A stretch of 64,000 nt of DNA. It comes from Desulfofustis limnaeus. GTDB taxonomy: Bacteria; Desulfobacterota; Desulfobulbia; Desulfobulbales; Desulfocapsaceae. The notes under the pieces were generated by a model that saw only the letters and a program-made list of their open reading frames with translations, did no database searches and was not told the origin of the DNA. Of this stretch, positions 32,254 through 47,136 are shown in pieces. The position numbers and the translations under genes are program-made. Within the stretch, counting starts at the first letter, position 1, and the number at the start of each line of letters is the position of its first letter. The DNA lies in contig NZ_AP025516.1 of NCBI RefSeq assembly GCF_023169885.1, positions 744,001 to 808,000 of the forward strand, in the 5' to 3' direction.

Positions 32254-32271
32254 CACGAGAGGGGGATGGCA

Positions 32272-32637
32272 ATGCAGTATCATAATTCTTTTCAGGTATC
32301 ACGGCCGGTGTTTCACCCCGGTGCCGTGAGGCGTTTGACCGCAAGACGGGAGAGGGAATTGCCCGGTGGCGGTCTCCTGTGGATGGCATCGGCCAAAGCG
32401 GCGGTACTGGTGGCGGGAGTCGCCCTGCTCGTGAGTCTGTTGATCGGTTTCGGCGTGTCGAGGGTGCACGATGACATGCGAGCCATCAACGAACGCCAGC
32501 ATGAGCTTAAAGATGAACAGATCGCCTTGTTGGCCGAGCGTGCGAGTCTGATGTCCAAACAGCAGATTTCCCGAAGGGTGGCCACCCAGTTGGCTCTCTA
32601 CGAAGCAGAGCAGGACCAGGTATTCAAAGTGCGCTAG
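32272..32637 (+). CDS. ftsL: FtsL-like cell-division protein
   Basis: This 121-residue bitopic protein has a basic cytoplasmic N-terminus and one membrane helix (AAVLVAGVALLVSLLIGFGV, about 43-62). A periplasmic coiled coil follows (RVHDDMRAINERQHELKDEQIALLAER). Sequence similarity within the FtsL family is always low, so the call rests on topology and position between rsmH and ftsI. ATG 32272 is preferred because GAGAGGGGG lies at good distance; an ATG two codons earlier (32266) is too close. It is expected to form a trimer with FtsQ and FtsB and to activate FtsWI. Confidence 0.85.
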   Translation: MQYHNSFQVSRPVFHPGAVRRLTARRERELPGGGLLWMASAKAAVLVAGVALLVSLLIGFGVSRVHDDMRAINERQHELKDEQIALLAERASLMSKQQISRRVATQLALYEAEQDQVFKVR

Positions 32638-32646
32638 CCGATCATC

Positions 32647-34521
32647 ATGGCGAAACGGTCCCGTCTACGCACACAGGGCGCTGGGAGACGGCGACTGGCA
32701 GTCATGGGGGTGCTGCTGGTGCTCCTGCTTGGAGGTGGGGCCTGGTATCTGCGGAGCTGGCAACCTGATCTTTGGGGACGGTTGTGGCCTGGTGCGGCCC
32801 GAATGGAAGGGGGCGGCGCCACCCAGCGGGAAGGTGTCCGCGGTACCATTTACGATCGGAATTACCGGGAGTTGGCCGTTTCCTACGAGCGTGTTTCGGT
32901 GTATGCGAATACTCGTGAAATCAGTAATTTGGTTGAGGTGATCGAGCCCCTTGCGAATGTCCTGCAGGAATCGTTTGGCGATCTCTCCGCCCACTTCAGC
33001 TCCGGTAACCCCCGTATCTGGCTGGCCCGCGACATCAGCCAGGAACAGGAACAGGCGATAGACGACCTGGCCCTCCCCGGGATCTATCTCCATCGGGAAT
33101 ATGTCCGGTATTACCCGGAGAAAGAGTCCACTGCCCACCTGGTCGGGTTTGTTGAACGGGACACCGGTCTGGCCGGTATCGAACGGTTTTTCAATTCCCT
33201 GGAGACCAAATACCGATTGGGCGGACCCCAGACGGAAGATCTACAGCTCCTGGCCGATGGACAGCCGGGCGCCGACGGCCGACACCTGATTTTGACGGTC
33301 GATCTCAAGATTCAAGCCCTGCTCAACGACTATCTTGCCGCCTTTTCCGAACTGGACCCAGGCTGCAAACGTGGCGCCCTGGTGATGGAGGCCGACACCG
33401 GCGCCATTATCGGTTATGCGCAGAAACCATCGTTTGATTCCAATCGGTTTCACACCTATTCCGAGGAGGTCTTCAGCGATGTTTTCAACGAGATGATGGC
33501 CGCTCCGGAACCGTTCAAGCGGTATCTGCGCGAGACTTCCCTACTGGTCAGCCAGTCAGAGGAAAGCCAGGCGTTGCTGCCGTGGAGCATTGCCGTCGAA
33601 AAACGCAAGCTGGGAGTTCAACTGCAGCTTTGGGAAAAACTGGGGGCAGCCGGCCGTGGGACCTCCGATTTCCAGGGATCCGTTGACGACATCAGTGAAC
33701 GGGTGCCCTTTACGTCGCCATTTTCACCGGCTGCGGACTATGAAACGGTGCCGGTGATGCAGACGCCGTTGCAAATACTCACGTCGATCACGCGTACGGT
33801 AAACGGTGGCAAAAAGATCACCCCCCACACAGCCGACCGGCTGATTTTGAGGCACAACCAGAGTGAATATCTGCTGGAGACCTTCCTGCAGATCCCTGCC
33901 AAGCCTCTTTTGCCTGCCGAGGTGTCGGATGAGGCACGACGGATCTTCCAGGCCATGGGCCGGTCCGGATCATTGAACGCTTCAATCTTGTCCGGGGTCA
34001 GCACTTCCTATAAGATGAACGGCGGAATGAACTCTCTGCGCCGCCATTATCTGGTGGTCGCCCTGGTTCCGGTAGAGCAGCCGGAGCTTGTCCTGCTGAT
34101 AGCCGGGTCCGATCCGGGGTATCTGACCGAGTCTGATCAGAGCGTTGATCCTCTGGCCGGAGTGGACCCGCTCATCGCTCCGGTCGTGGCTTTACAGCGC
34201 GTCATGAAAAACCTGGCAGACATGATGCGCCCCAGGGACCAAGCGGGGATCAATTATCGCGCTCTGGCCGGAGAGAACGACACGCCGCCCAGCGAGGAAC
34301 CGAGATCCCCGGTCGCCGCTGAAACACCGGCAATGACCATGCCGGATCTGAGCGGCATGAGTCTGCGCAAGAGCATCAGGATCCTGCAAGGCGCCGGTGT
34401 TTCCATTACCGTTGGCGGGAGCGGCCGGGTCGTATCCCAGGAGCCGGCCGTCGGAACACCGTTGTTACCGGATATGACGGTCCGGCTGACGCTCAAACAA
34501 GATGACGTCGATACGCCGTGA
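32647..34521 (+). CDS. ftsI: FtsI-like class B penicillin-binding protein with PASTA domain, transpeptidase motifs missing
   Basis: The 624-residue protein has a basic N-terminus and one membrane helix (about 17-34). The class B pedestal follows (VRGTIYDRNYRELAVSYE at 64-81, then LPGIYLHREYVRYYPE and LVGFVERDTGLAGIERFF). The start of the transpeptidase fold is clear (GALVMEADTGAIIGYAQKP, 243-261) and a C-terminal PASTA domain lies at 565-617. The catalytic motifs are gone. Where EPGSTFK should stand there is APEPFKRY (286-293, no Ser). The SxN region reads LPWSIAVEKRKLG (311-323), and KTGT is replaced by SGVSTSYK (449-456). There is no frameshift or stop, spacing to ftsL is 9 bp, and the protein is full length, so it looks like a maintained pseudoenzyme and not a decaying gene. 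It probably serves as a divisome scaffold. Confidence 0.88.
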   Translation: MAKRSRLRTQGAGRRRLAVMGVLLVLLLGGGAWYLRSWQPDLWGRLWPGAARMEGGGATQREGVRGTIYDRNYRELAVSYERVSVYANTREISNLVEVIEPLANVLQESFGDLSAHFSSGNPRIWLARDISQEQEQAIDDLALPGIYLHREYVRYYPEKESTAHLVGFVERDTGLAGIERFFNSLETKYRLGGPQTEDLQLLADGQPGADGRHLILTVDLKIQALLNDYLAAFSELDPGCKRGALVMEADTGAIIGYAQKPSFDSNRFHTYSEEVFSDVFNEMMAAPEPFKRYLRETSLLVSQSEESQALLPWSIAVEKRKLGVQLQLWEKLGAAGRGTSDFQGSVDDISERVPFTSPFSPAADYETVPVMQTPLQILTSITRTVNGGKKITPHTADRLILRHNQSEYLLETFLQIPAKPLLPAEVSDEARRIFQAMGRSGSLNASILSGVSTSYKMNGGMNSLRRHYLVVALVPVEQPELVLLIAGSDPGYLTESDQSVDPLAGVDPLIAPVVALQRVMKNLADMMRPRDQAGINYRALAGENDTPPSEEPRSPVAAETPAMTMPDLSGMSLRKSIRILQGAGVSITVGGSGRVVSQEPAVGTPLLPDMTVRLTLKQDDVDTP

Positions 34522-34559
34522 TCGTGAGCCGACGATCGGGAACGTAAGGAAAGGTGAAT

Positions 34560-37500
34560 ATGCTTCTTTCTGATCTGCTTGGAGGACTGGCCCACCGATG
34601 TTGTTCGCAGAAGACACCGGAGCAGGTCCTGGTCGAAGGGATCTCCGCCGACTCTCGGACAGTGGTTGAGCACGGCCTATTCGTGGCGCTGAGTGGCGGG
34701 ACCACCGACGGTCACCACTATCTCGCCGCTGCGGTCCAGGCCGGCGCGGCAGCAGTGATGGTGGACTGTCCGCAGAAGCTCCCGGCGGATATTGCTCATT
34801 CTGGTGTCTGCGTTGTGGTGGTTGATCGGTGTCGGAGCGTTCTCGGGGAGCTGGCTGCGCGTTTTTACGGCCGGCCAGCGGCTGCCTTGACGCTGCTCGG
34901 AGTCACCGGGACCAACGGTAAGACCACCGTTTCCTATCTGCTGGAACACGGACTCCGCCGGATCGGGCGACAGGTCGGGGTCATCGGTACCGTGGAATAC
35001 CGCTATCCGACCACGGACGGACGGACGATCCACCGACCGGCCCCGTTCACTACCCCCGACCCTCTTCGCCTGCACAGCCTGTTTCGGGAAATGGCGGACA
35101 ACAGGGTGACCCATGTGGTCATGGAGGTATCCTCCCATGCGTTGCGCCAGGAACGGCTTGGCCCCGTGCGTTTCGCCCTGGGACTCTTCACCAACCTGAG
35201 CCAGGATCATCTCGATTATCATGCCAGCATGACCGATTATTGGGAGGCCAAGTGGCAGCTGTTCGAACGGTACTTGGCTGCCGATGGCACGGCTCTCATC
35301 GTGCTGCCGGAAAACAACGGCAGTGAGACGTCCGGCTGGGCGGAAAAGATGGCGGCCGGCTGTCGAGAGCTGCCGGTACGAACAGTGACCTGCGGCCGGT
35401 CGCGTCAGGCCGATTACCATCTGCTCCAATCGACTTCGACGCTGGCCGGGTCGACCCTGGACTTTCAGGATAATCAAGGGGCTATCCATCGGCTGCATTC
35501 GCCTCTGGTCGGTGATTACAATATGGATAACCTGCTGGCGGCGCTGACTGCCCTGACGGTCCTCGGGGTCGCGGTCGATGAGGCTGGCCGGGTCCTGGCC
35601 GATGCGACGGGGGCGCCGGGCCGGTTGCAGCGGGTCGAACTGGCCGAGCGTGGCGACGGGCAGCCGACGGTGCTGGTCGATTATGCCCACACCCCCGATG
35701 CCCTAGCCAACGTGTTGAAGACGCTGGCGGCGATCCCTCACGGGCGTCTTTTCTGCCTGGTGGGCTGCGGCGGTGATCGCGATCGGGGAAAGCGCCCGTT
35801 GATGGGTGGTATTGCCGCTCAATACAGTGACGTGGTGGTGGTTACCGATGACAATCCGCGCAGCGAGGAACCGGCCGTCATCCGATCCCAGGTCCTGGAG
35901 GGGGTACGCCACCAGGGGATGGTTGTTCACTCGGTCGAGTGGCTGGCTACCTGGGGGAAATCGGAGAAGGGTGCGGTCGAGGTGGCCGGCCGGGAAGCGG
36001 CCATCAAAGCGGTGGTAACGACGGCCCGACCGGGCGATATCGTATTGCTTGCCGGCAAGGGCCATGAGCAATACCAGATCATCGGTGGTGGTCGCCGGTT
36101 TTTCGATGACGTTCTGGCGGCCCAGCAGAGCAGCCTTTCGTGGGATACCGATACGCTGGTCGAGGCCACCGGCGGGCGGCTGCTCGCCCCCGCCGAGCGG
36201 ACCGGGCAACGCTTTGGCACGGTGTCCACCGACAGCCGCTCCTGCCAACCGGGTGACATCTTCGTCGCCCTGGTCGGTGAGCACCATGATGGCCATGAGT
36301 TTCTGGAAAAAGCGCTGCAGGCGGGGGCCGGCTGCCTGGTGGTCTCCGATGCCGGGCGGGTCACCGGATCAGGAGTGGCCTGTGTGGTCGTTCCCGACAC
36401 CCTGGCCGCCCTGGGTGACATGGCCCACTTTCGCCGCCAGGCGGTTCGTCGCCTGCGACAACCGGTGGTGGTCGGTCTGACCGGCAGCTGCGGCAAGACC
36501 ACGGTCAAGGAGATGGTTGCCGCCATTTTCACCGCTCGCTGGCCGGACCGCGCCGATCGACCGGCCGGCCGAGTTCTGAAGACGCTCGGCAATTTCAACA
36601 ACCTGGTCGGTCTGCCTTTGTCGCTCCTGCCGATCGATGCCCACCATCGCGGGGCGATCCTGGAAATGGGGATGAACCAGCCGGGTGAGATTGCCCGGCT
36701 AGCCTCTATCGCCGACCCGGATATCTGCTGTATTACCAATATTCACGGGGCACATCTGGAAGGGCTGGGGACCATTGAAGGAGTGGCCGCCGCCAAAGGG
36801 GAATTGTTTGCCCTGGCCGATGAGCGAGCGGTGCTGGCCGTCAATCTCGACGATGCACGGGTGGTGCGGCAGGCCCAACTCCATCCCCACCGCACCCTCG
36901 GTTTTTCCGCCGATCCCGCCGGTCGCCCGGAGGCTGCAGAGGTCTGGGTGGAGACTGCCGGTGTCGACGGTGAGGGGGCCTTGTCCCTGGTGTTGCACGT
37001 GGGCGACCAGCGGCGGTCCGTGGTAATCCATGCCGCAGGTCTGCACAACGGCGGCAACGCCGCTGCGGCAGCAGCGATCGCGCGGGCCGCCGGGATCGAG
37101 GTGGATTGCATTGTTGCCGGGCTGGAGCGGTTCCGGGCGGCTGACAAACGGATGCAGAAGTTGAAGAGTGGGACCGGCGTGAATATCCTCAACGACACCT
37201 ATAACGCCAACCCGGCCTCCATGGCGGCGGCATTGGCGACGCTGGCCCGGTTACCGGCGCGCCATCGCGTCGCCCTGCTGGGTGATATGCTCGAGCTGGG
37301 AGCTGCCGCTCCCCAGCTCCATGAGGAGATCGGGCGCACGGCTGCAACCGTGGGAATCGACTATCTCGGCGTGGTCGGATCGTTTCGTGAGGACATCGGG
37401 CGGGGGGCCCGAGCCGGCGGCATGAAGGAGGAACAGATCATCATGCTGCCAGAAAAAGAAAGAGCTGTTGACTGGTTGACAGAGCTGGTGCATAGTGGGC

Positions 37501-37604
37501 GTTTACATTCCGGCGACTGGCTCCTGGTCAAGGCGTCCCGGGGTATCGCCCTGGACACCGTGGTCAGCGCCTTTGTCGAGTCATCTGCCACCACTAAATC
37601 GTAA
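34560..37604 (+). CDS. murE-murF: MurE-MurF fusion: UDP-MurNAc-tripeptide synthetase / MurNAc-pentapeptide synthetase
   Basis: This 1014-residue polypeptide joins two Mur ligases. Residues 1 to about 510 are Mur[13 protein letters not shown] loop [10 protein letters not shown] (114-123), [13 protein letters not shown], and DNPR at 431-434, the motif that selects meso-diaminopimelate. From about 525 on it is Mur[18 protein letters not shown] loop [10 protein letters not shown] (639-648), [24 protein letters not shown] and LGDMLELG. It adds meso-DAP and then D-Ala-D-Ala to the peptidoglycan precursor in the cytoplasm. ATG 34560 is chosen since AAGGAAAGG precedes it; a GTG two codons upstream is possible. 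No stop or restart lies between the halves, so this is a true fusion. Confidence 0.95.
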
Positions 37605-37618
37605 CCATCCCGCAACTC

Positions 37619-38697
<1,079 letters not shown>

Positions 38698-38698
<1 letters not shown>

Positions 38699-40068
38699 TG
38701 AACGGCGAGTCTTTGATAAAACCGGGGATGTCGGCGGCGGTGGTGGGCTGTGGTCGGGCCGGTCTGGCCATGGTCGAGTTCCTGGCGCACAGCGGTGCCC
38801 ACGTACTCGCCTCGGACACCCGGTTGCTTGCCGACTTCGCCGGAAACGAGCAGGATCTGCTCAAACGCTGCACGGTCGGCTTCGAGGGCGGCGGGCATAG
38901 CGTCGAATTTCTCAGCCAGGCCGAGTTGATCGTGGTCAGCCCCGGCATCGACCTGCGCCATCCGGCCCTGACTCGGCTGCGCCACGGCGGAGCCGCCCTG
39001 GTCGGCGAACTGGCGGTGGCAGCCCCGCTGCTGCGCGCTCCGGTCATCGCCATTACCGGGACCAACGGCAAGACGACGGTGACCGAGGTGGTCGGGGCGC
39101 TGCTCCAGGAGGGTGGCCGCCGGGTGTTCGTCGGCGGCAATATCGGCACGCCGGTGGGAACCTGCCTGCTGGAGGCGGCCGATGTCGAGGTGATCGTCCT
39201 CGAGGTCTCCAGTTTCCAATTGGAGCTGAGTGGCGGATTCATCCCCCGGGTCGGTGTGCTGCTCAACATCACCCCCGACCACCTGGATCGGCACGGTTCA
39301 CTGGACCACTATGCGGCGGCCAAGATGCGGATCTTTCAGGGAGGGCCGGAACAAACCGACATCGTCATCAACGGCGATGACCCGCTGACCGCAACCTATG
39401 TGCCGGCAACGGTCGCCGCCGCCGCTCGGCGTTTTGGTTGCCGACAGGGAGCAGCGGCCATGGTCGACGGGGAAGGCGTGGTACTGGCCGCCGATGGCGG
39501 CCGGCAGGTTTTTCCGCTGGGCGGCTCCAGTCTCAACACCGCTTCCGGCCGCATGAACAGCGCCGCGGCGCTGCTTGCCGTCCAGCGTTTTGGTCTTGAT
39601 CCGGCGGCGATCCGGCGAACGCTGGCCACCTTTCAGGTGGGACCGCACCGGATGCAGGTGGTGGCCGAGATCGGCGGCGTCCGGTTCATCAACGATTCGA
39701 AAGGGACCAATACCGGAGCGGTGATCAGTGGCCTGCGGCAGGTCGGCAGCCGGGTGATTCTCATTGCCGGCGGCAAGGACAAGGGTGAAGATTATCGGTT
39801 GCTGCGAGACGCCGTCAAACAAACGGTGAAGCACCTGATTCTGATCGGCGAGGCGGCGCCGAGCCTGGCCGAGGCTCTCGGCGACCTGGTACCCTGGACG
39901 CCTGCCGGGAGCATGGAGGATGCGGTACGGCAAAGCGCGGCCCTGGCGATCTTCGGCGACACCGTGTTGCTGTCGCCGGCCTGTGCCAGCTTCGATATGT
40001 TTGCCAATTACAAGCAACGGGGCGATCGGTTTGCCGCCGCGGTCGAGAGGCTGGCGGAGGAACCATGA
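38698..40068 (+). CDS. murD: UDP-N-acetylmuramoylalanine-D-glutamate ligase MurD
   Basis: This 456-residue Mur ligase has a Rossmann-like head (AAVVGCGRAGLAMVEFLA), the ATP loop [14 protein letters not shown] (about 117-130), VLEVSSFQLEL, NITPDHLDRHGS, HRMQVVAEIGGVRFINDSKGTN and LSPACASFDMF. It adds D-glutamate to UDP-MurNAc-L-Ala. Its stop overlaps murG by 4 bp, leaving no room for ftsW, which usually lies here. Confidence 0.97.
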
Positions 40069-41177
40069 AGGGCCTGGAGACGGCACAAAAACCGCCCTTG
40101 CGCCTGCTGCTGACCGGCGGCGGGACCGGAGGGCACCTGTTTCCCGCCGTGGCCACGGCCGAATCGCTGATCGCTGGTGAGCCGGAAGCCGCCATCCTTT
40201 TTATCGGTACGCGTCGACGCCTGGATCGGGAGCATCTTGAGAGAACCGGTTTTGCGGTGCAAACCATTGCCAGCTACGGCCTGAAAGGAAAAAGACTACC
40301 GGAATTGGTCAAGGCCCTGGCGGTCCTGCCGCTCTCCCTATTCCAGGCCGGTTGGCGAATTGTCCGGTTTCGTCCGGATGTGGTCTGCGGGGTTGGCGGC
40401 TATGTGACCGGACCGGTACTTGCCGCCGCCTGGCTGTTGCGCCGGCCGCTCCTGATCCACGAACAGAACTCGGTACCCGGACTGGCGAATCGTCTGCTCG
40501 GCCGGGTGGTGGATCGAATCTGCCTGTCGCTGCCGGAGAGCGAGACCTATTTCCCGGCCGGAAAAACCGTGCTGACCGGAAACCCGGTCCGCCGGTCGAT
40601 CCTCGAGGCGGCGCGGCGAGCGCGGCCGAGGGGTGGACCCCGAACACTGCTGATCCTTGGCGGCAGCCAGGGGGCCCGGCCGGTGAACAAATTGGTAACC
40701 GAAGCGCTGACCAGAAATCCCGAGGATTTTTCCGGGGTGCATATCATTCATCAAACCGGTACGGCCGACGAGCACTGGGTGGCGGAGTGTTACCGGACCG
40801 CCGGAATATCCTCAACCGTGGCGCCGTTCTTCACTCACATGGCGGACACCTATTCCCAGGCCGACCTGGTGATTTCCCGATCCGGGGCGACAACCCTGGC
40901 CGAGTTGTCGGTGCTCGGATTGCCGGCATTGTTGATACCGTATCCCCATGCGGCGGATGATCATCAGTTCCGCAACGCCCGATGGTATGGTGACAATGGC
41001 GGGGCCCTGGTCTTTCGGCAGGAGGAGTTGCCGGCCGCGGAACTGGCCCGGCAGGTGTTGCGCCTGCTGGCCGACGAACCGCGCCTGCGGCAGATGTCGG
41101 AGGCCATGCGGCGTCTCGGAATCGCCGATGCCGCCGAACGAATCGTTGCCATCTGCCACGAAGTGGCGAAGCGATAG
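40065..41177 (+). CDS. murG: UDP-GlcNAc:lipid I N-acetylglucosaminyltransferase MurG
   Basis: This 370-residue GT-B enzyme has the G loop LTGGGTGGHLFPAVA near the N-terminus, VCGVGGYVTGPVLAAAW, HEQNSVPGLANRLLG, a second loop LILGGSQGARPVNK and the donor site SRSGATTLAELSVLGLPALLIPYP. It makes lipid II at the inner face of the membrane. It overlaps murD by 4 bp and is followed 6 bp later by murC. Confidence 0.97.
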   Translation: MKGLETAQKPPLRLLLTGGGTGGHLFPAVATAESLIAGEPEAAILFIGTRRRLDREHLERTGFAVQTIASYGLKGKRLPELVKALAVLPLSLFQAGWRIVRFRPDVVCGVGGYVTGPVLAAAWLLRRPLLIHEQNSVPGLANRLLGRVVDRICLSLPESETYFPAGKTVLTGNPVRRSILEAARRARPRGGPRTLLILGGSQGARPVNKLVTEALTRNPEDFSGVHIIHQTGTADEHWVAECYRTAGISSTVAPFFTHMADTYSQADLVISRSGATTLAELSVLGLPALLIPYPHAADDHQFRNARWYGDNGGALVFRQEELPAAELARQVLRLLADEPRLRQMSEAMRRLGIADAAERIVAICHEVAKR

Positions 41178-42572: not shown

Positions 42573-43519
42573 AGGGTTTGAGTTCCTCCCAGAAGGCAGC
42601 GTTGACCGGGGTCGTCGGCAGTGGTTCGATCCGTTGGAACGAACCGCTGTCATCCTGGACCACCTATCGTGTCGGTGGGCCGGCCGATGCCCTGGTCACG
42701 CTGCTTGCTGTTCAGGAACTGCCGAGATTGTTGACTGTCTGTTGCCAGCAGGGAATCCGCTGGCGAGCCCTGGGAAGAGGGTCAAATATTCTTGCCGCCG
42801 ATGACGGTTTTCGCGGGGTCATTATTGTGCTCGACGGCGAGTTCAAGTACATTGTCAGGCAACGGCAGGAAGGGAGCCGGGTGCTGGTCAAGACCGGTGC
42901 CGCCGTCAGTCTGCCGCACCTGTCCGGCTGGTGTGGTGATGAAGGGTACGGCGGGCTGGAATTCGCCGTCGGTATCCCCGGCAGCGTGGCCGGAGCGGTG
43001 ATGATGAATGCCGGGGCGTGGGGCGGGGAGATATCGCAGGTGGTTGTCGCCGTTGAACTGGTTGGCCCGGATGGGGTGCATCTGGAACAGGCCGGCGACT
43101 TGCGGTTTGGTTATCGCTGCTGCCATGCTCTGCGGGGGCAGAGACAGCAACGGGTGATCAGTGCCGTGCAGTTCCTGCTCAACGATGCGGAGCCGGAAAT
43201 AGTCAAGAAGAAGATGCGGGATTTTCGTGAGCGGAGAAACAGCAGCCAGCCGGTTGGTCAGGCGAGCGGCGGTTGTGTATTCAAAAATCCGCCCGGCCTG
43301 AGTGCCGGGCGCCTCATTGACGAGGCCGGTTTAAAGGGGCTGCGGATCGGCGACGCCATGGTGTCGGACGTTCACGCCAATTTCCTGGTCAATTGCGGGC
43401 GAGCCCGCGCGCTCGAGATAGCGCAGCTGATTGAGGTGGTCCGTGCGCGGGTAATGGCTGCCACTGGCGTCCTGCTGGAGACTGAGTTGGAACTGTTGGC
43501 GGCGGAGGGCGGCCCATGA
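42569..43519 (+). CDS. murB: UDP-N-acetylenolpyruvoylglucosamine reductase MurB
   Basis: This 316-residue FAD enzyme has [59 protein letters not shown] and the type I C-terminal catalytic region ([31 protein letters not shown]). It reduces the enolpyruvyl group to make UDP-MurNAc. It overlaps murC and ftsQ by 4 bp each. No ddl is present between murB and ftsQ, unlike many other dcw clusters. Confidence 0.96.
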
Positions 43520-44514
43520 GACAATCGCTTTTCCGTCGAAGCGCCGCGTGGTTCAGGCGTCAGCTGCGTCGAAACCGATCGCGCATCTCGGTTGATTCTG
43601 GGAGGAGCGCGTATGTCCGGTTGCCGGTTCATGAGCAGCGCTTGCAAAAGAGCCTGTTAAAAAAAATAAACGCCTACTGGACGCAGAAAAGGCTCGCCCG
43701 TCGTCCGGCCGCCCTTGCGGAGCAGAGCGGTCGCGGCCTGTGGCGCGGCGCGTTGCTGGTTATCTGCCTGGTGGCTGCGTCGATTCTCTTGGTTACCGGC
43801 AAAGGTCCGGGAGGACTGGCCAGTCTGCTGGCGTCCCTCGACTATTTCCGGCTGACCGGTATCGAAGTTCGTGGCTGCCGCCATTCCTCCGTCCAGGAGG
43901 TAAAAACGGCCAGCGGCGTGACCATCAGCACCAGCCTGTTCGCCGTCGATGCCGAAGCGGTCGGTGCTGCGGTCCAATCCGCCGACGACTGGGTAAAATC
44001 AGTGCGGGTGGTCAGGCGCTGGCCCGATGAACTGCTGATCGAGGTGGATGAATACGAGCCGTATGCCTTGATCACGCGTACCGACAACCACCAGACCGGG
44101 CTCTATTATCTGGACCGGGACGGGGTCCCTTTCCTCAAGACCAAGGCCGGTATGGATCTTGATTATCCGGTCATCACCGGTTTGGAAGGGATCGCGGTGG
44201 CGCAGGAGCACGAAGGTCTGGCGCAGGCCCTGGCGTTTCTGCGTCTGGTCGCTGCCAACAATCCGAACCTGCCGGCGCAATCGGTTTCCGAGGTGCATGT
44301 CGATGGTACGGGGGAATTGATCGTGTACCTGGTTGAGCATCCCTTTCCGATCATGTTCGGCGGGGGAGAGATTAGACAGAAATATCTTCGTCTGCGTAAG
44401 GTCTTGGAAGTTCTTTATAAACCAAGAAAAGAAGGGATGGATATTGCCCGGGTAGCCTATATTCGCATGAATTACCTGAAAGACAGGGTCATTGTCGGTT
44501 ATCGAGAGTCTTAA
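43516..44514 (+). CDS. ftsQ: cell-division protein FtsQ/DivIB
   Basis: The 332-residue bitopic protein has a long basic cytoplasmic tail (about 75 residues), one membrane helix (GALLVICLVAASILLVTG, about 78-95) and a POTRA domain (YFRLTGIEVRGCRHSSVQEV). The FtsQ beta domain follows (WVKSVRVVRRWPDELLIEVDEYEPYALI). It links FtsL/FtsB to the divisome. The 75-residue N-terminal tail is longer than in E. coli. It shares one base with ftsA. Confidence 0.93.
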   Translation: MRQSLFRRSAAWFRRQLRRNRSRISVDSGRSAYVRLPVHEQRLQKSLLKKINAYWTQKRLARRPAALAEQSGRGLWRGALLVICLVAASILLVTGKGPGGLASLLASLDYFRLTGIEVRGCRHSSVQEVKTASGVTISTSLFAVDAEAVGAAVQSADDWVKSVRVVRRWPDELLIEVDEYEPYALITRTDNHQTGLYYLDRDGVPFLKTKAGMDLDYPVITGLEGIAVAQEHEGLAQALAFLRLVAANNPNLPAQSVSEVHVDGTGELIVYLVEHPFPIMFGGGEIRQKYLRLRKVLEVLYKPRKEGMDIARVAYIRMNYLKDRVIVGYRES

Positions 44515-45794
44515 TGGAAATGAGCACCGAAGAAAACATGGAAGAACAGCCGACCGCCGTTGAGGAAACACCGGCCGGCAGAAAGAGAGAGGAGCGCGGC
44601 GATCTGGTGGTCGGCCTCGATATCGGTACCACCAAGATCTGCTGCGTGGTCGGTGAGGTATTCGAGGACGGTATCGATATTATCGGCGTCGGTACCGCGC
44701 CGTCTCTGGGTATGCGTAAGGGCGTGGTGGTCAATATCGAGAGTACCGTGGCCTCGATCCGCAAGGCGGTCAAAATGGCAGAGGACACCGCCGGCTGTGA
44801 CCTGGAGTCGGTCTATGTGGGTATTGCCGGCAACCATATCAAGGGGTTCAACAGCCCCGGAATCCTCGCCATCAACGGTCGGGAAATAAAGCAAAGCGAC
44901 ATCCAGGAAGTGATCAATGCGGCGCGGACCGTGAAGATCTCCGAGAACCAGCAGGTCATTCACGTCCTGCCGCAGGAATACATGGTGGATGATCACACCG
45001 GCATCCAGAACCCGCTCGGCATGACCGGAGTCAGGCTGGTGACCAACGTCCATATCGTCACCGCTGACATCGGCGCTGTCCACAATATGGTGACCTGTTG
45101 CAACAAGGCAGGGCTGCAGGTGGCCGATCTGGTGCTGGAGTCGATCGCCTCGGCCAAATCGGTACTGACCCCGGACGAAACCGAGCTGGGCGTGGCGCTG
45201 GTGGATATCGGCGGCGGCACCACTGATATCGCCGTCTTCTACGAGGGCACCATTCGCCATACCTGTGAGCTGGGATTGGGTGGGCACAACCTGACCAATG
45301 ACCTCTCGGTGGGGCTGCGCACTCCGTTGGCTGAAGCGGAACGGTTGAAAGAGGATTACGGCAGCGCCCTGTCTTCGATTATCAAACCGAACCATGTGGT
45401 CGACGTGCCTTCGGTCGGTGATCGCGAACCGCGTCGGGTAACCCAGAAGGTGCTGGTGGACATCATCGAGGCCCGGATGGTGGAGATCCTCGAGATGGTG
45501 GACCGTGAGTTGGCCTTCTCCGGCCAGAAGAACCGGATCAATGCCGGTGTCGTTCTGACCGGCGGCACCGCCTTGTTGGCCAACCTGGTCGACCTGGCCG
45601 AGCAAATCTTCGATCTGCCGGTGCGTATCGGTTATCCGGGAGGGGTCGGCGGCAGGGTTGAGGATATTTACACGCCGCGTTGCACGACCGGGGTAGGGCT
45701 GGTCATCTATGGCCGGGAGCACCAACTGTCGGGCCTGCACCGGGAGGCCGGAGTGGTGGATAAGATGAAAGGGTGGTTCAGGAAAATCATGTGA
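44514..45794 (+). CDS. ftsA: cell-division protein FtsA
   Basis: The 426-residue actin-like ATPase has LVVGLDIGTTKICCVVGEV (phosphate 1), VALVDIGGGTTDIAVF (phosphate 2), VVLTGGTALL (adenosine motif) and a C-terminal amphipathic membrane anchor (VVDKMKGWFRKIM). About 28 acidic, polar residues precede the fold. It tethers FtsZ to the membrane. A 121-bp gap separates it from ftsZ, the largest in the cluster. Confidence 0.97.
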   Translation: MEMSTEENMEEQPTAVEETPAGRKREERGDLVVGLDIGTTKICCVVGEVFEDGIDIIGVGTAPSLGMRKGVVVNIESTVASIRKAVKMAEDTAGCDLESVYVGIAGNHIKGFNSPGILAINGREIKQSDIQEVINAARTVKISENQQVIHVLPQEYMVDDHTGIQNPLGMTGVRLVTNVHIVTADIGAVHNMVTCCNKAGLQVADLVLESIASAKSVLTPDETELGVALVDIGGGTTDIAVFYEGTIRHTCELGLGGHNLTNDLSVGLRTPLAEAERLKEDYGSALSSIIKPNHVVDVPSVGDREPRRVTQKVLVDIIEARMVEILEMVDRELAFSGQKNRINAGVVLTGGTALLANLVDLAEQIFDLPVRIGYPGGVGGRVEDIYTPRCTTGVGLVIYGREHQLSGLHREAGVVDKMKGWFRKIM

Positions 45795-45915: not shown

Positions 45916-47136
45916 ATGCCGTTCAGAATGGCTGAGACCGAAAGTGTCGCGTTGGTGAGGGTGATTGGCGTCGGCGGCGGTGGCGGAAATGCCATCAATA
46001 CCATGGTGGCCAATCGCTTGCAGGGGGTGCAGTTTATCGCCGCCAATACGGACAAGCAGGCACTCGACCAATCGAAAGCGGATATCTGCCTGCAACTGGG
46101 ACCGAGCATCACCAAGGGTCTCGGGGCCGGGGCCGATCCCGAGACCGGTTCGCAGGCGGCCCTGGAGTCCATTGAAGAGATCAAACAGGCGTTACGGGGC
46201 AGCGATATGGTCTTTGTTACCGCTGGCCTCGGCGGTGGCACCGGGACCGGAGCCGCCCCGATCGTGGCCAAGGTGAGCAGGGAACTCGGCGCCCTGACCG
46301 TGGCCGTGGTCACCAAACCCTTCAGCTTCGAGGGAAAACACCGTCGGCGCAACGCCGAAGAGGGCTGGAACGAGTTGCACAAGTACGCCGACACGATCAT
46401 CACCGTGCCCAACGACCGGTTGCTCAGCCTCATGCAGAAGACCTCCAAGCTCGCCGACATGTTGACCTTAGCCGACACGGTATTGTTACAGGCGGTCAAG
46501 GGTATCACCGATCTGATCAATGTTCCGGGATTGATCAATGCCGACTTTGCCGATCTGCGTACCGTCATGAAGGAGGTTGGGCCGGCGATCATGGGATCGG
46601 CATCGGCAATTGGCGAGAACCGAGCCTCGGAGGCGGCTAAACGAGCCATCGACAACCAGCTGCTGGAAAATGTCGGCATTGACGGTGCCAGAGGTTTGCT
46701 GATCAACATCTCCGCCTCCGAAGACAGTTTCACCATGGCCGAGTTCATGGAGGCTTCCGCCCTCATTCAGGAGAAGGTGGATGAGGACGCCAAGGTGGTG
46801 ATCGGCGCCCTTTACGATAATTCCCTGGGAGACGAGCTGCACGTCACCGTCATCGCCACCGGGGTCGGCGATATCAGCAGGAAGCAGGATACCATTGCCC
46901 AGGTCGGCGACCTGCCGCGCAAACAACAGCGACCGGAGCCCGAACAACAGGTGTACAAACCGGCGCCGGCCAACCGAAAACAGCGGATAACCATGCTACC
47001 CGGTTCCAACTTCGACGCCTTTGACAACCTGGGACCGGTGCGTGGCGCTGAACAACGGGAGGAACGGCCGCGTACCGACGGCTGGCGGGAGGATTATCTG
47101 GAAACTCCCACGTACCTGAGGAAGAAGGCCAATTGA
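45916..47136 (+). CDS. ftsZ: cell-division GTPase FtsZ
   Basis: This 406-residue tubulin homologue has RVIGVGGGGGNAINTM, the tubulin signature VTAGLGGGTGTGAAPIVA (about 102-119), the T7 loop region around NADFADLRTVM, a Gln/Arg-rich linker (about 330-385) and the C-terminal peptide DYLETPTYLRKKAN for FtsA/partner binding. All GTPase residues appear intact. AAGGGAGATCGAT precedes the ATG. It ends the dcw cluster proper; the radical SAM gene follows after 19 bp. Confidence 0.98.
   Translation: MPFRMAETESVALVRVIGVGGGGGNAINTMVANRLQGVQFIAANTDKQALDQSKADICLQLGPSITKGLGAGADPETGSQAALESIEEIKQALRGSDMVFVTAGLGGGTGTGAAPIVAKVSRELGALTVAVVTKPFSFEGKHRRRNAEEGWNELHKYADTIITVPNDRLLSLMQKTSKLADMLTLADTVLLQAVKGITDLINVPGLINADFADLRTVMKEVGPAIMGSASAIGENRASEAAKRAIDNQLLENVGIDGARGLLINISASEDSFTMAEFMEASALIQEKVDEDAKVVIGALYDNSLGDELHVTVIATGVGDISRKQDTIAQVGDLPRKQQRPEPEQQVYKPAPANRKQRITMLPGSNFDAFDNLGPVRGAEQREERPRTDGWREDYLETPTYLRKKAN

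Follow-up and report, generated by a model that had tools for sequence, protein, structure and literature searches.

A degenerate FtsI and the apparent absence of FtsW in the dcw cluster of Desulfofustis limnaeus and other Desulfobulbia

How is the septal wall built when the FtsI of the dcw cluster has lost its transpeptidase motifs? This question is raised by a stretch of 64,000 nucleotides of the Desulfofustis limnaeus genome (the whole of which is called "the window" below), in which a first-pass annotation had noted that all three motifs were missing from FtsI. In the accessible text of one study, FtsW–FtsI is presented as a universal requirement of walled bacteria for building the septal wall (PMC12539705). 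We analyzed the window protein, its relatives, and the other wall synthases of the genomes that encode it.

The dcw cluster of the window and its FtsI

The dcw genes of the window are arranged in the order mraZ, mraW, an ftsL-like gene, ftsI, murE–murF, mraY, murD, murG, murC, murB, ftsQ, ftsA, and ftsZ. The names of mraZ, mraW, mraY, murD, murG, murC, and murB were given by recognition and are presumably correct; the order is shared with relatives. All features located below in the window are on the plus strand. As had been reported, the operon is tightly spaced around ftsI: the ftsL-like gene occupies positions 32266–32637, ftsI 32647–34521, and the murE–murF fusion 34554–37604. The FtsL-like protein (123 aa) was identified from its position, its size, and one hydrophobic stretch; it had no Pfam match, and weak relatives occur at the equivalent position in L225, L226, and L235 (here and below, L and G numbers are our working labels). 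The MurE–MurF fusion protein (1016 aa) contains two Mur ligase units; the fusion is also found in G109, G063, and G237, and the genes are separate in G155. It is followed by MraY (37619–38698) and MurD (38698–40068), both recognized frames with relatives in the same order, and by MurG (40065–41177). FtsQ (43516–44514; POTRA_1 and FtsQ_DivIB_C), FtsA (44514–45794; FtsA and SHS2_FTSA), and FtsZ (45916–47136; Tubulin/FtsZ and FtsZ_C) are, judged by these domain matches, still in the cluster alongside the dead FtsI. The usual position of ftsW in other dcw clusters is between murD and murG. The dcw cluster of the window contains no ftsW, and murG (start, 40065) comes right after murD (end, 40068), with a 4-base overlap.

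The ftsI frame is open and full length and encodes 624 aa, and both the pedestal and the PASTA domain that had been recognized in it were confirmed by translation and a Pfam search. The pedestal (PBP_dimer, PF03717; residues 63–172, positions 32833–33162) scored 46.8 bits against a cut-off of 24.4, and the PASTA domain (PF03793; residues 564–616, positions 34336–34494) scored 40.5 bits. The Pfam Transpeptidase profile scored 20.1 bits, below its cut-off of 22.1, with the best stretch at residues 244–278. From the sequence and the alignments, the lost SxxK site corresponds to APEPFKRY (residues 286–293, positions 33502–33525), the lost SxN site to LPWSIAVEKRKLG (residues 311–323, positions 33577–33615), and the lost KTG site to SGVSTSYK (residues 449–456, positions 33991–34014), i.e., the stretches that the first-pass annotation had named.

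When 17 family members were aligned, profile to profile, with 21 intact FtsI sequences (E = 3.9e-73), residues 45–619 were covered. The catalytic Ser column corresponded to a gap beside P289 and the Lys column of SxxK to K291, whereas SSN was aligned to S314-I315-A316 and KTG to V451-S452-gap. In this alignment of 17 with 21 sequences, the window family had no nucleophile Ser, no SxN Asn, and no KTG Lys or Gly. The sites were placed slightly differently in a joint MAFFT alignment (P289/R292; G..Q; V-S-gap), and SxxK, SxN, and KTG were absent from the window FtsI under both placements. The nearly full-length profile match would be compatible with a retained FtsI fold; the AlphaFold2 model, which had only the window protein and its D. 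glycolicus orthologue as input, reached a pLDDT of 38, too low for use. Of the features that characterize FtsI/PBP3, the protein has the dcw position between ftsL and murE and the pedestal, and lacks a motif-bearing transpeptidase domain, and no FtsW partner was found in the genome.

Extent of the motif loss and conservation of the protein

The class was taken to be Desulfobulbia, judged from Desulfofustis glycolicus DSM 9705, a member of the window's genus that NCBI places in Desulfobulbia, Desulfobulbales, Desulfocapsaceae. The window protein had a match in 59 of the 60 family genomes searched, the exception being G008. The class set of 92 sequences consisted of the window protein, 57 sequences from family genomes, 29 from 30 genomes of nine other families of the order, and five from added genomes, which bring in a tenth family beyond that of the window. 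L065/G015 (split frame), L096/G085 (C-terminal part), L006 (the same as L008), and L007 (the row of the window itself) were left out, and the frames of L075, L091, L094, and L095 among the 92 are incomplete. The 60 outgroup sequences, from other classes of the phylum, comprised 53 intact FtsI, four dead FtsI, and three whose best match was PBP2 (L133, L137, and L153); the count of 53 intact sequences was made after these three had been taken out.

In the joint MAFFT alignment, SxxK was found in 0 of the 92 class sequences, whereas SxxK and SxN were present in all 53 intact outgroup sequences, with KTG in 52 and KTA in one. Because S..K occurs in 0/92 sequences of the class and in 53/53 of the outgroup, the motif loss is neither chance nor sequencing error. 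Isolated residues were seen in the class: two of the 92 sequences have Ser at the Ser column without the Lys, in 28 of 92 the Lys column is occupied by K or R, L080 has S.N, and L077 has K/R..G. At least 91 of the 92 sequences retain each of the control columns R65, D70, P157, and Q223, and the pedestal control residues were conserved in the class and outgroup sets alike. Three further class genomes (G063, G109, and G129) were concordant, so that the loss first reported for a single protein was recovered in 92/92 class sequences and in these three genomes. A sequencing artefact or frameshift was rejected as its cause, since the identical loss occurs in 94 further class genomes. In the sequences compared, motif loss is thus a trait of the whole class and not of the D. 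limnaeus genome alone. The outgroup sequence in which KTA replaces KTG, L123 (G186), is otherwise an intact FtsI, and its genome has two SEDS genes.

The first-pass annotation had also proposed that the protein is selected in a non-catalytic form, and the substitution rates support this. For the closest 24 of 54 pairs, which share members, dN/dS was 0.09–0.26 for the whole protein and 0.09–0.44 for the former catalytic core; in the 23 computable pairs, it was 0.05–0.22 for the pedestal (residues 61–185) and 0.05–0.19 for PASTA. In most pairs, the rate of evolution is higher in the former core than in the pedestal. These ratios indicate that the dead FtsI is under purifying selection with its active site released, and the combination of lost catalytic residues and purifying selection is that of a pseudoenzyme. 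The remodelled region might instead be a transpeptidase domain with a new active site made of other residues, perhaps with another substrate, as P287 (in a Pro-containing helix) and W313 are invariant across the 17 aligned family members. We consider this most improbable, because neither residue is common to the other families of the class and the core is the faster-evolving part.

Decay of the transpeptidase domain is graded. The Transpeptidase score was 260 bits in L100 (intact), 102 in G155, 39 in G237, 25–38 in four class members, and 20 in the window. In G130, the FtsI frame (L094) has 487 residues, with the catalytic core trimmed and the pedestal and PASTA kept. In G167 and G203, FtsI is absent, PBP2 being the only PBP_dimer protein, and the FtsI scaffold is therefore dispensable there. 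The graded scores, the trimming in G130, and the absence from G167 and G203 could together mean that the dead FtsI is a functionless remnant, heading for loss as in these sister lineages. Against such a remnant, which we regard as very unlikely, stand the low dN/dS, the invariant pedestal residues, and the second PBP_dimer protein: two PBP_dimer matches were obtained in 111 of the 115 class genomes, and of the four with a single match, three have an FtsI-type protein, and in one (G085) a contig ends in an FtsI-like fragment.

SEDS genes, class B PBPs, and the outgroup genomes

An SEDS profile search of the 115 class genomes gave one match in 111 genomes and none in three (G063, G109, and G129); in G060, the single SEDS gene is in two abutting pieces. 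No genome thus had more than one SEDS gene, and FtsW was not found by this search in any of the 115. In the window genome (one contig), the sole SEDS gene found is rodA, immediately behind the gene for PBP2, which is the one intact class B PBP (near C1:479–482 kb). The search of this genome thus yielded PBP2 and no second intact FtsI. A second intact FtsI was likewise not found in the class, with two or fewer PBP_dimer matches in each of the 115 genomes, and the idea of an intact FtsI elsewhere in the genome was rejected on this ground. The first-pass annotation had reasoned that the cell needs another transpeptidase to divide, and PBP2 and three class A PBPs are available in the window genome. 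It had also allowed that the protein serves as a scaffold or activator of such an enzyme. One form of this, FtsI retained as the activator of FtsW, was rejected, because no FtsW was found and only one SEDS gene is present, too, in the four outgroup genomes whose FtsI is dead; a scaffold or activator of another synthase stands as a proposal.

A strongly diverged FtsW, or L,D-transpeptidases, could have been overlooked and be doing the missing work, given that an extremely diverged protein can escape a profile search whose first step is loose and that the searches were for SEDS, PBP_dimer, transpeptidase-domain, and GT51 proteins. We think that this has little chance of being correct, because the SEDS profile finds the class RodA at E values of about 1e-90 to 1e-108 in most genomes and, among the 53 outgroup genomes with an intact FtsI, recovers at least two SEDS genes in 43. 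To our knowledge, L,D-transpeptidases do not polymerise glycan strands. Among the other intact-FtsI genomes, eight had one SEDS gene and two had none; of these ten, seven are draft genomes whose completeness does not exceed 93%. In three genomes (G240, G156, and G180), the one SEDS gene is about 6–7 kb from ftsI on the same contig and is taken to be ftsW from this position; in G234, an SEDS gene lies 7 kb downstream of ftsI. G156 (L128; 100% complete) is a mirror case, in which FtsI is intact, FtsW is assigned by position, and PBP2 was not found.

The four dead FtsI among the 60 outgroup sequences belong to G155, G192, and G227, which are of one family, and to G237, and each of these genomes has one SEDS gene. 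Additionally, a PBP_dimer search of 24 selected outgroup genomes showed that PBP2 is the only PBP_dimer protein in eight single-SEDS genomes: G162, G199, G166, G202, G236, G167, G203, and G233. A ninth genome, G224 (89% complete), also has PBP2 alone and one SEDS gene, and its family relatives have two SEDS genes; G181 had neither a PBP_dimer nor an SEDS match. The patterns of G224 and G181 are possibly draft gaps. G161 and G144, which were not among the 24, have two SEDS genes and no match to the window protein, and they are possible counter-examples to a strict rule that FtsW and FtsI are lost together.

A tree of PBP2 and RodA from 37 genomes (quick search, linked genes, midpoint root, SH-aLRT only, several long branches) placed the 18 class members in one group (support 100) and united the class with G155 and G237, which have a dead FtsI, and with G167 and G203, which have none (support 98). 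G199 with G233, and G166, fell outside the group containing Desulfobulbia. The simplest reading is that FtsW was lost once before this clade and that FtsI then decayed, the decayed protein persisting in Desulfobulbia but disappearing from some sister lineages, with at least one separate loss elsewhere. G166, G202, G236, G162, G199, and G233 are complete or nearly complete genomes. In these six, of which G166, G199, and G233 were placed in the tree, the loss of FtsW and FtsI was probably separate from that in the Desulfobulbia clade.

Candidate synthases of the septal wall

Since FtsI is dead and no FtsW was found, the septal wall must be built by other enzymes. We consider it probable that, in Desulfobulbia, the septal FtsW–FtsI SEDS–bPBP synthase has been dismantled and FtsI has been kept as a non-catalytic subunit of the divisome. 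On this account, ftsW would have been lost from the murD–murG junction and the transpeptidase site of FtsI would have decayed, leaving a membrane anchor, the pedestal, a remodelled transpeptidase-like domain, and PASTA. The retained protein may dock via its pedestal on the FtsL–FtsQ side of the divisome and may position or stimulate another wall synthase at the septum. In models of the E. coli complex, as given in the accessible text, the FtsI anchor domain touches FtsL, FtsB, and FtsW (PMC10390529). The septal wall is most likely made by a class A PBP and/or RodA–PBP2, the successor enzyme being the part that we infer.

The three class A PBPs of the window genome have 810 aa (with UB2H), 619 aa, and 1117 aa, and GT51 proteins were found in 28 of 29 class genomes. 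G155, G192, G237, G167, and G203 each have a single GT51 protein of 664–721 aa, which in G155, G237, G167, and G203 is closest to the 619-aa type of the window genome. In G107, the class A PBP is only of a divergent short type, and universality is therefore not demonstrated for any class A protein. With this reservation for G107, the synthases common to the FtsW-less clade would be RodA–PBP2 and a short class A PBP. We put the chance that a class A PBP is the main septal synthase at somewhat better than even, by analogy with C. difficile. The short PBP1A-like protein is the favoured first candidate, because the related FtsW-less genomes that were tested contain no other class A PBP.

According to the accessible text of the study of C. 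difficile division, class A PBP1 divides the cell, and class B PBP3 promotes septation without catalysis, in a complex with PBP1; to the authors' knowledge, this was the first example of class A PBP-driven division without FtsW–FtsI (PMC12539705). The inventory of Desulfobulbia is similar: neither FtsW nor a catalytic FtsI for division was found in the class, and RodA–PBP2 and class A PBPs remain, as in the window genome. The dead FtsI also resembles PBP3, a class B PBP that promotes septation and whose catalysis is dispensable. By the same analogy, the dead FtsI on FtsL/FtsQ might recruit or stimulate a class A PBP. There are also differences. The dcw genes of C. difficile encode active sporulation enzymes, SpoVE–SpoVD, whereas in Desulfobulbia ftsW is gone and the dcw FtsI is dead; and PBP3 is an enzyme that plays a non-catalytic part, whereas the FtsI of Desulfobulbia is dead and belongs to a Gram-negative division apparatus with FtsA and FtsZ in place. 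Similarly, the transpeptidase activity of B. subtilis FtsI/PBP2B and S. aureus PBP1 is described as dispensable in the text available (PMC12539705), i.e., the structural role of FtsI is separable from catalysis there as well. However, in those species FtsW is present and activated by FtsI, and the wild type is catalytic, whereas the wild-type FtsI of Desulfobulbia is dead and the searches recovered no FtsW.

The chief rival to septation by a class A PBP is that RodA–PBP2 performs septal synthesis besides elongation, with the dead FtsI bringing the pair to the septum. RodA–PBP2 is the only SEDS–bPBP pair left (one SEDS gene in 111 of 115 class genomes, with two or fewer PBP_dimer proteins) and is also kept by genomes without any FtsI. 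In C. difficile, with the same inventory, RodA–PBP2 elongates while the class A PBP divides, as stated in the accessible text (PMC10693644), and we rate the rival as possible but rather unlikely. G063, G109, and G129, in which the SEDS and PBP_dimer profile searches found neither RodA nor PBP2, would also speak against it, although an assembly gap is possible in each. The hemH gene, which adjoins rodA in G061 and G062 and lies 3 kb away in G022, is also missing from these three genomes, which are therefore explained by a gap in the assembly or by the loss of the entire block. Their use as proof of septation by a class A PBP was dropped for this reason. In G109 (90% complete, 2.0 Mb), no transpeptidase-domain protein, GT51, SEDS, or PBP2 was found, so that either the assembly has gaps or the cell lacks wall synthases; its dcw cluster, on L225, contains the mur genes and the dead FtsI.

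Returning to the class A PBP as septal synthase, we tentatively suggest, at a little under even chances, a broader picture: a whole Gram-negative class, probably including the cable bacteria, would lack a dedicated septal SEDS–bPBP synthase, and a class A PBP, dependent for its recruitment or activity on FtsI as an allosteric pseudoenzyme, would build the septum. This arrangement would go back to an ancestor that Desulfobulbia share with related lineages and would be independent of the clostridia. The absence of FtsW is already known for part of the class: in the accessible text of Geerlings et al. (2021), ftsW, ftsN, and zipA are reported to be missing in four genomes of Desulfobulbaceae, two of them from cable bacteria, and FtsI is treated as present and recruited to the divisome (PMC7873302). 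Our results agree on the absence of FtsW and add the loss of the FtsI motifs and the class-wide extent, neither of which is mentioned in that text (PMC7873302). Among the matches listed in the open literature, which covers few subscription papers, there was no description of a dead FtsI in Desulfobulbia. What is new here, for a divisome that probably works without FtsW–FtsI, is the preservation of FtsI as a pseudoenzyme.

These genomes amount to a natural experiment, in which the structural role of FtsI is separated from its chemistry and relatives provide a graded series of decay. We predict that PBP3-directed beta-lactams should not block division in these bacteria, and that moenomycin or PBP2 inhibitors should reveal which synthase took over. 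The findings also bear on the cable bacteria, for which the absence of FtsW has been published and FtsI is assumed to be active in the text available (PMC7873302).

The longest class A PBP of the window genome (1117 aa; L066:1453–4806, corresponding to C1:2327452–2330805 on the minus strand) has about 400 residues between SxN (548) and KTG (951), i.e., an insertion in the transpeptidase domain. A GT51 frame of 1100–1176 aa occurs in 25 of 29 class genomes and in 1 of 14 others, and orthology was checked in G107, G074, and G089.
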